Of a stretch of DNA of 64,000 nucleotides, positions 6,608-8,679 are shown piece by piece. The notes under the pieces are model-generated. The model was not told the DNA's origin, ran no database searches, and was given only the letters and a program-made list of their open reading frames with translations. Position numbers and translations under genes: made by a program. The DNA lies in the NCBI GenBank assembly GCA_902626605.1, contig CACOFZ010000003.1, forward strand, positions 1 through 64,000, in the 5' to 3' direction. Every line of letters begins with the position of its first letter. Position 1 is the first letter of the stretch. The stretch is from an uncultured PS1 clade bacterium. Its GTDB lineage: Bacteria; Pseudomonadota; Alphaproteobacteria; MED-G09.

Positions 6608-7828
6608 CTAAAGTCCTAAAACCATTTTTGCTATAATATTTCTTTGAATCTCATTAGATCCACCATAAATTGAAGTTTTCCTCATACCAAAATAATTTTG
6701 AGCAACGCCTTGAGTATGTTCTGGTCCAACCTCAAGATAATTTGATCCAAAATTTCGAACGCTAAGAGGTGTAATGTAAGGACTTGCATAATTACCAATG
6801 GCTTCTAAAGTTAATTCAGAAATCTTTTGTTGAATTTCTGTTCCTTTAATTTTTAGAATTGAAGACTCGACACCTGGTCCTTCTCCCTGACTCTCCTTTG
6901 CTAGAGTTCTTAGCTCAGTATACTCTAAAGCAGTTAAATCAACCTCAAGTTCTGTAATTTTTTTATTAAAAGATGAGTCATTGATCAAAGGTTCACCATT
7001 GTTTAGTTCAGATTTAGCTATCTCTTTTAATTTATCAATTGCTTTTTTAGAACGAGCCACACCTGCTATACCAGTTCTTTCATTACCAAGTAAAAATTTA
7101 GCAATTGTCCATCCCATATTTTCTTCTCCAACAAGATTTTCAACAGGTACTCTAACATCTTCAAGGAATACTTCATTAACTTCATGACCACCATCAACTG
7201 TAATAATTGGCTTTACCTCAATACCTGGAGTATTCATATCTATTAAGAGAAAAGAAATGCCCTCTTGAGGCTTTCCTTCACTAGATGTTCTAACTAAACA
7301 AAACATCCAGTTCGCATACTGTGCTAAAGTTGTCCATATTTTATGACCGTTTACAATATAGTGATCACCATCTCTTTCAGCTTTTGTTCTTAGACTAGCT
7401 AAATCAGATCCTGCACCTGGTTCAGAATAACCCTGACACCACCAGTCGTCTCCAGATAAAATGCCCTTTAATACCCAATCTTTTTGATGATCATTACCAA
7501 AAGCAATTATAACAGGGCCTAACATAGTTAACCCAAAAGGTATTAATGGAGTTGTTCCGGCATTAGCGCATTCCTGATCCCAAATATATCTCTGAGTAAT
7601 AGACCAATCAACCCCACCATATTCAACAGGCCAATGAGGTGCTATCCAACCTTTTTTATAAAGTTTTTTATGCCATGAAAGAATTCCTTCTTTCATTTGG
7701 TCGGAGGTAACCTCGTGATATTTTTCGATGTTTTGACCGGTATTATTTTCTGGTGAAAAATTTTCAGCAATGAAATCACGTACTTCATCTCTAAATTCTT
7801 GATCAGCTTTTGTAAAATTTAAATCCAT
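6608..7828 (-). CDS. Acyl-CoA dehydrogenase (large-subunit type)
   Basis: A 406-aa FAD-dependent acyl-CoA dehydrogenase. GYSEPGAGSDLASL is at 133-146, the likely catalytic Glu is E250 in GNERTGIAG, and the C-terminus reads YGGSNEIQRNI, where straight-chain enzymes usually carry YEGT. It is a clear paralogue of the enzyme at 3432-4643. As first gene of the operon it is followed after 10 bases by the small-subunit-type protein, an arrangement typical of heteromeric steroid or branched-chain acyl-CoA dehydrogenases. The substrate is not visible in the sequence. No strong ribosome site; GGAAAG lies about 9 bases upstream. Confidence 0.9.
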   Translation of the reverse strand: MDLNFTKADQEFRDEVRDFIAENFSPENNTGQNIEKYHEVTSDQMKEGILSWHKKLYKKGWIAPHWPVEYGGVDWSITQRYIWDQECANAGTTPLIPFGLTMLGPVIIAFGNDHQKDWVLKGILSGDDWWCQGYSEPGAGSDLASLRTKAERDGDHYIVNGHKIWTTLAQYANWMFCLVRTSSEGKPQEGISFLLIDMNTPGIEVKPIITVDGGHEVNEVFLEDVRVPVENLVGEENMGWTIAKFLLGNERTGIAGVARSKKAIDKLKEIAKSELNNGEPLINDSSFNKKITELEVDLTALEYTELRTLAKESQGEGPGVESSILKIKGTEIQQKISELTLEAIGNYASPYITPLSVRNFGSNYLEVGPEHTQGVAQNYFGMRKTSIYGGSNEIQRNIIAKMVLGL

Positions 7829-8006
7829 TTTTTTACTCTTTCCTAATAATATTAGTACACTATAACATTTATAATAATTGTATAATTTAGAACATTTACT
7901 TTTATGTAATATCAGAGGTATCTAATTAAATCCATTGTATTTTTGTCGCAATTATCAAAATTAATTATTACAAATAAAAATAATTAAAAAAAGTATTTTT
8001 ATTACT

Positions 8007-8034
8007 CTTGAAAAGAAAAATAATTTAACCATTT
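8007..8034 (+). promoter_or_regulatory. Sigma-32 (RpoH)-like heat-shock promoter
   Basis: CTTGAAA at 8007-8013 and CCATTT at 8029-8034 are separated by 15 bases. This matches the gammaproteobacterial sigma-32 consensus (CTTGAAA, 11-16 bases, CCATNT) at every defined position. It lies directly upstream of a small heat-shock gene, exactly where such a promoter is expected, and would give a transcript beginning near 8041. The 178 bases between the divergent acyl-CoA dehydrogenase gene and this site show no other feature I can support. Confidence 0.8.
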
Positions 8035-8040
8035 AAATGA

Positions 8041-8096
8041 TATGGATGCCTAAAAGGATCCTAAACTTAATAACTTGCTTTAAAAAGGAGTATAAA
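8041..8096 (+). promoter_or_regulatory. ROSE-like RNA thermometer leader of the small heat-shock gene
   Basis: Two hairpins can be drawn in the predicted 56-base leader. Hairpin 1 pairs 8044-8047 with 8058-8061 and 8049-8050 with 8056-8057, with a bulged G and loop UAAAA. Hairpin 2 pairs 8073-8076 with 8088-8091 and 8078-8080 with 8085-8087, closing over loop UAAA and leaving G77 (8077) bulged. The 3' arm contains the Shine-Dalgarno GGAG (8087-8090), and the opposing strand carries UUGCU (8075-8079), the hallmark of ROSE thermosensors. Heat would melt the hairpin and free the ribosome site. Pairing is by eye; no energy was computed. Confidence 0.65.
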
Positions 8097-8546
8097 ATGA
8101 ATACAAGAATAGAAACAATTTGGAGAGATCTCTCTCCTTTCGCAGTAGGGTTTGATAGAACATTTGATACATTATCAATATTAGCAAACTCTAAAGCTCA
8201 AAATACAAACTATCCTCCGTATAATATTAGAAAATTACCTGAGGATAAGTACAGTATTGAACTTGCAGTGGCTGGTTTTGATGAAAAAGATATCGATATT
8301 GAGGTATCTGAACAAAACCTGATAATAGATGGCAAAAAATCTGATGAAATGAATGAAAATTTAATTCATCAAGGTCTAGCATCAAGAAATTTTAACAGAA
8401 AGTTTGTTTTATCAGAGGATATGGTTGTTCAAGGTGCTGCTCTATCTAACGGCATACTTTACATTGGAATACAAAGAGTAATTCCTGAGCATAAAAAACC
8501 AAAGAAAATTCCTCTTACTAGCAAAGAGAGTCTTTTAAACTCATAA
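8097..8546 (+). CDS. Small heat-shock protein, Hsp20/IbpA type
   Basis: ATP-independent holdase chaperone that binds unfolding proteins. The alpha-crystallin domain spans about 38-128, with ELAVAGFDEKDIDIEV and the family's NGILYIGI strand; the C-terminal tail reads KKIPL. The N-terminus (DLSPFAVGFDRTFD) matches IbpA-type proteins. The start is the ATG at 8097, 6 bases after AAAGGAG; the in-frame ATG at 8037 lies upstream of the predicted transcription start and lacks a ribosome site. Product 149 aa. Control by a sigma-32-like promoter and an RNA thermometer is described in the two entries before this. Confidence 0.93.
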   Translation: MNTRIETIWRDLSPFAVGFDRTFDTLSILANSKAQNTNYPPYNIRKLPEDKYSIELAVAGFDEKDIDIEVSEQNLIIDGKKSDEMNENLIHQGLASRNFNRKFVLSEDMVVQGAALSNGILYIGIQRVIPEHKKPKKIPLTSKESLLNS

Positions 8547-8568: not shown

Positions 8569-8602
8569 AAGGTGGTGAAATTATTTTGCCACCTTTTATT
8601 TT
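8569..8602 (+). terminator. Rho-independent terminator of the small heat-shock gene
   Basis: AAGGTGG at 8569-8575 pairs with CCACCTT at 8589-8595 across a 13-base loop, followed by TTATTTTTT. It stands 23 bases after the hsp20 stop and isolates that gene from the MFS gene downstream. Confidence 0.85.
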
Positions 8603-8679
8603 TTATAATTATTAATTAGATTTACCTAGTATTAAAAGATAAATTTAATATATTGATATAGCTATTTATAGAGGGGTCT

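Follow-up and report, generated by a model that had tools for sequence, protein, structure and literature searches.

A probable ROSE-type leader ahead of hsp20

The leader of the hsp20 gene (8041-8096) in the window, which is the whole 64,000-nucleotide stretch of DNA analysed here, is very probably a short two-hairpin RNA thermometer of the ROSE type situated behind a sigma-32 promoter. An earlier note had read CTTGAAA and CCATTT, spaced by 15 bases, as a sigma-32-like promoter, and UUGCU opposing the Shine-Dalgarno (SD) sequence with one bulged G as the core geometry of ROSE elements. The promoter elements were found where they had been placed, in a genome that encodes RpoH, and the proposed core geometry gained support from a full-length match to the Rfam family ROSE_3 and from covariation across families. 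The relevant features are listed below.

6608-7828, minus strand: putative acyl-CoA dehydrogenase gene, divergent and upstream of hsp20 (named from its translation)
8007-8013, plus strand: -35 element, CTTGAAA, kept in 11 of 12 family genomes
8027-8034, plus strand: -10 element, AACCATTT, including CCATTT at 8029-8034
8041-8042, plus strand: predicted transcription start, placed from the -10 position and giving a leader of about 56 nt
8044-8061, plus strand: hairpin I, GGAU[G]CC-UAAAA-GGAUCC, with bulged G8048 (folding; covariation across families)
8073-8091, plus strand: hairpin II, ACUU[G]CUU-UAAA-AAGGAGU, with bulged G8077, predicted to occlude the SD (pair counts, flanking-pair covariation, ROSE_3 alignment)
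8075-8079, plus strand: UUGCU anti-SD (ROSE) motif, invariant in the family
8085-8090, plus strand: SD sequence, AAGGAG
8097-8546, plus strand: hsp20, IbpA-like small heat-shock protein of 149 aa (PF00011), start codon ATG at 8097
8569-8604, plus strand: probable intrinsic terminator, AAGGTGG...CCACCTT followed by a T run (read by eye)

The source genome is alphaproteobacterial and comprises 1.29 Mb in 35 contigs. Its Hsp20 is 98-100% identical to proteins in records named Rhodobiaceae bacterium, OCS116 cluster bacterium and uncultured PS1 clade bacterium. A PF00011 profile search identified this gene as the sole hsp20 of the genome, and the best NCBIfam match of its product was IbpA (123 bits, under the equivalog cut-off). 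The hsp20 transcript looks monocistronic. Two genus mates that are 96-97% complete (G003 and G004) gave no hsp20 match whatsoever, which makes loss of the gene within the genus of the source genome probable.

The promoter

The promoter matches 12 of 15 positions of the sigma-32 consensus CTTGAAA-N13-CCCCATAT, and when the intergenic region was shuffled by mononucleotides 500 times, only 4 shuffles scored as well. The genome contains the strict pattern CTTGAAA-N12-16-CCATNT five times, the hsp20 promoter included; of the remaining four matches, one falls within an open frame on the same strand, and no gene begins shortly downstream of any of them. In 11 of the 12 family leaders, CTTGAAA stands 67-68 nt ahead of the ROSE core, and L007 has a degenerate version. 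RpoH is encoded in the source genome (TIGR02392, 360 bits, above cut-off), so that both marks of a sigma-32 promoter, the consensus match and the cognate factor, are present, and we infer that sigma-32 uses it. The expected start near 8041 would place hairpin I right at the 5' end of the transcript.

The hsp20 leaders of family f9 (L070, L072, L075 and L076) and leader L037 show no sigma-32 -35 element upstream of hairpin I. They carry instead a TATATT-like -10 element and an inverted repeat around TTGACAT..ATGTCAA, a combination that points to a different transcriptional control combined with the same thermometer.

Structure and predicted folding

The leader displays the features of the ROSE-like class, namely pairing of UUGCU with the SD in the 3'-proximal hairpin, an unpaired G (G8077) opposite the SD, and two hairpins, within the usual two to four, in a 5' UTR of about 56 nt (if transcription starts near 8041) before a heat-shock gene. 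In full-ensemble calculations, pairing of 8073-8091 was predicted from 10 to 48 °C, the SD bases being for the most part 0.6-1.0 paired. On warming, the SD was predicted to open in a shallow and gradual manner, from 0.20 unpaired at 20 °C to 0.36 at 50 °C. The fold energy of the isolated leader was not significant (z = -1.46, 18 of 200 shuffles being equally good), and curves of melting based on the minimum free energy were erratic for the rpoH and dnaK leaders described below and were given no weight. Energy models do not include the special non-canonical pairing described for ROSE, and we therefore relied on sequence comparison over energy.

In the window, Y[G]CY opposed to RGR is a local motif of both hairpins, hairpin I resembling a copy of the sensor. 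Across the leaders collected, hairpin I always contained a bulged G in the context Y[G]CC/GGR or Y[G]CU/AGR, which repeats the local motif of hairpin II; the extraction behind this result picked the best-pairing frame and so biased its own statistics upwards.

Conservation and covariation

The pattern CTTGCTT-N-AAGGAG was found ahead of hsp20 in all 12 hsp20-bearing genomes of the PS1 family. The form CTTGCTT-N2-8-AAGGAG occurs once in the source genome, before hsp20, and a reversed-pattern control gave no matches. The other core or promoter matches examined in the family genomes fell within genes or had no gene start nearby. R1, a covariance model based on the 12 family leaders, scored the window at 73.9 bits, the next best place in the genome reaching 22.1; these weak own-genome matches, of 22 bits and below, had no heat-shock context. 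Within the family, hairpin I covaries, three of its pairs showing double changes, and hairpin II is invariant, so that covariation in hairpin II rests on other families.

An alignment of 38 leaders provided this wider comparison. In it 95.3% of cells pair, against 66.8% at best when the partners are slid, and 112 cells carry double changes (mean of 31.5 in shuffles), distributed over 10 of 16 pairs. The covariation score was 0.513, compared with 0.166 for shuffled and at most 0.101 for slid alignments; all these figures are biased in favour of the structure, to which the alignment had been fitted. An independent test of the register was based on 40 leaders anchored on the core sequence alone. 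The outer pair flanking CUUGCU/AAGGAG was A-U in 16, U-A in 14, C-G in 2, U-G in 2 and unpaired in 6. It was thus paired in 34 of 40 leaders, with 18.3 expected, and in 16 of 20 (8.9 expected, p 0.0004) after collapsing by group. The inner flanking pair was C-G in 33, A-U in 3 (rpoH), G-C in 1 (dnaK) and unpaired in 3. Taken across families, covariation is strong in hairpin I, and the flanking pairs of hairpin II support the bulged-G ROSE register.

The earlier note had made its proposal depend on a stable pairing of 8073-8091, on retention of UUGCU and the pairing in close relatives, and on a transcription start no further downstream than 8073. Folding predicted the pairing, all 12 hsp20-bearing genomes of the family retain both motif and pairing, and the predicted start, at about 8041, lies upstream of 8073. 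The compensatory changes that it suggested looking for were observed, in hairpin I within the family and in the flanking pairs of hairpin II across families.

Alternative readings of the leader

The SD might be hidden by an ordinary, non-bulged hairpin of six pairs (U8076-A8092 to U8081-G8087), acting as a simple zipper or a permanent brake and not as a ROSE element. This register is the one used in the minimum free energy structure computed with Vienna for the window, nearest-neighbour energies favour it by about 1.1-1.6 kcal/mol, and it can form in most PS1 leaders. Over the 40 anchored leaders, however, it pairs 72% of cells, whereas the bulged-G register pairs 97%; in the rpoH leaders with GGAU and in some others only 2 of 5 cells pair in it, and the double changes are compatible with the bulged register only. 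The bulged-G geometry proposed here is established by sequence comparison and not by energy, and we consider the non-bulged hairpin improbable.

Somewhat less probable still is a reading in which the conserved leader sets mRNA stability, or is recognised by a small RNA or a protein, sigma-32 being the only route by which temperature acts. The strong conservation of hairpin I and its position at the predicted 5' end would suit such a role, and hairpin I of the Pseudomonas element, which does not melt, has been proposed to stabilise the mRNA (PMC3669281). This reading nevertheless leaves unexplained why UUGCU keeps facing the SD, with compensatory changes, in the leaders of hsp20, rpoH and dnaK. 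The region could finally be coding, with hsp20 starting at the in-frame ATG at 8037 and bearing an N-terminal extension, as in the mechanical list of open reading frames, where the gene begins at that position (169 aa). Genus mates show a 150-aa frame from the equivalent of 8097, which contradicts the extension, and ATG 8037 has no SD ahead of it and lies upstream of the predicted transcription start; we regard this reading as extremely unlikely.

Comparison with known thermometers

A cmscan of 301 nt returned ROSE_3 (RF02523) as the sole sensible Rfam family, at 25.1 bits (E 0.0027), a score below the curated gathering threshold of 43 bits. The match covers model positions 1-69 of 69 and corresponds to 8043-8102, spanning the whole leader and ending at the start codon. 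The earlier note had proposed a comparison with the Rfam ROSE families; RF00435 (ROSE, a 94-position model) gave no match at 7900-8200 up to E = 10. A fourU thermometer was considered and rejected, as only three U are present at 8079-8081 and two in L002, and they are not conserved. When RF02523 was run over 289 genomes with strict filters, just two weak matches were obtained, which indicates that the published model misses leaders of this kind.

In our own comparison, ROSE_3 consensus residues A35, C36, G39 and C40 agree with the residues mutated in the P. aeruginosa ibpA UTR (PMC3669281), and on this basis, which is not a statement of the database, we read ROSE_3 as the Pseudomonas ibpA element. 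That element is a two-hairpin ROSE in a 61-62 nt UTR behind a sigma-32 promoter, proven by reporter, toeprint and probing experiments (PMC3669281). The window leader has in common with it the two hairpins, a bulged G in the pairing of UUGCU/UCGCU with the SD, a hairpin I of the type GAUGCC...GGGUC, a small heat-shock gene downstream and putative sigma-32 transcription. It differs in being alphaproteobacterial, under the ROSE_3 threshold, AU-rich and shorter, with fewer G-C pairs in hairpin II, and in that related bacteria also place it before rpoH, dnaK and perhaps clpB. The suggestion of the earlier note that a two-hairpin leader of about 56 bases would be a very compact version therefore holds in part: the leader is slightly shorter, but the architecture is not new, as Pseudomonas ibpA has it in 61-62 nt.

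With the classical alphaproteobacterial ROSE (RF00435, Bradyrhizobium ROSE1) the leader shares the UUGCU/SD hairpin with its bulged G; the classical element has three to four hairpins, whereas the window leader is without the middle one or ones. A longer RF00435-like leader was observed in a 5.4-Mb genome (L021, 1374-1466; 29.5 bits with RF00435), with the same hairpin I (GGAUGCC/GGGUCC) and an extra middle hairpin. This candidate suggests that the short form lost the middle hairpin or that the long form gained it. An anti-SD motif with a bulged G is also common to ROSE-G and ROSE-like thermometers, in which ROSE-G has CUGCU and a double-G bulge and the targets are ABC-transporter genes and not heat-shock genes (PMC12857270, PMC11342760). 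The hsp20 leader L026, from a 1.4-Mb genome, carries an inverted repeat around the SD, ATTAACGCTTAAGGAGGTTAAT, possibly a different form of thermometer.

Leaders of the same design ahead of rpoH, dnaK and perhaps clpB

Model R1 and then model R2 (38 leaders; cut-off E<=0.01) were run over 385 alphaproteobacterial genomes, and R1 located the leader in many families of the class. R2 gave 39 matches, of which 37 precede a heat-shock gene according to the downstream gene: 26 hsp20, 8 rpoH, 2 dnaK and 1 clpB, with 2 before other genes. Outside the training set, 19 of 21 matches precede heat-shock genes, L128 among the matches being closely related to a leader used in training. NCBIfam matches served to identify RpoH, DnaK and ClpB; all rpoH cases are above the sigma-32 subfamily cut-off NF005143, and four fall short of the stricter TIGR02392.

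Two-hairpin ROSE-type leaders directly before rpoH (L067, L068, L088, L078/L123, L124, L125, L133, L138 and L143) were observed in families f22 (3 of 3 genomes), f94 (3 of 4), f39, f73 and f90. They mostly follow sigma-70-like promoters (9-11 of 12 matches), whose -10 element ends 5-13 nt ahead of hairpin I in eight of nine cases, the exception being L078. From these sequences we infer constitutive sigma-70-like transcription of rpoH, with the thermometer as the heat input. The rpoH leader of the source genome itself (L041) has no ROSE core.

ROSE-type leaders also precede dnaK in families f136 and f55 (L098, L103, L079 and L144), and in L103 a compensating G-C replaces C-G beside the core. 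The clpB leaders L081, L084 and L139 open with this hairpin I, in the form GACGCC...GGGUC or GAUGCC...GGGUC; in L139, a hairpin GUCUU[G]CC/GGGAGAC is present as well. Heat-shock mRNAs may share hairpin I as a cap at their 5' end.

We think it reasonably likely that the two-hairpin ROSE is a general heat-shock switch of small-genome alphaproteobacteria that controls rpoH itself in five families, such that the sigma-32 response would have a ROSE as its starting point, hsp20-type targets would carry a second one, and dnaK and perhaps clpB would be included. A specialist would not expect to find the design on rpoH and dnaK. In the literature searched, which included few subscription journals, no report of ROSE on rpoH or dnaK was found, nor anything relevant about thermometers in Pelagibacter, and ROSE on rpoH seems not to have been described previously.

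Discussion

At ordinary temperature, hsp20 transcripts would be few and poorly translated, with hairpin II holding the SD through UUGCU and its single bulged G. Upon warming, the weak helix of hairpin II would open and let ribosomes bind, while sigma-32 would raise transcription of hsp20. Heat would then act on transcription as well as on translation, a dual response for which P. putida provides experimental evidence (PMC3669281). Hairpin I, with which the transcript is expected to begin, probably has a role in guiding the folding of the RNA or in protecting it.

The finding takes a thermometer design proven in Pseudomonas into marine alphaproteobacteria that are streamlined and AU-rich, and it provides a covariance model able to detect this design before the principal heat-shock genes in many lineages that have received little study. 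In E. coli, the rpoH mRNA is a thermosensor that places sigma-32 translation under heat control, and its structure involves the coding region and is not of the ROSE type. Heat-controlled translation of sigma-32 is likewise proposed for the rpoH leaders found here, whose structures, in contrast, lie wholly 5' of the start codon. If these rpoH cases are true, they would represent a second RNA solution for heat-dependent sigma-32 synthesis, structurally unrelated to that of E. coli.
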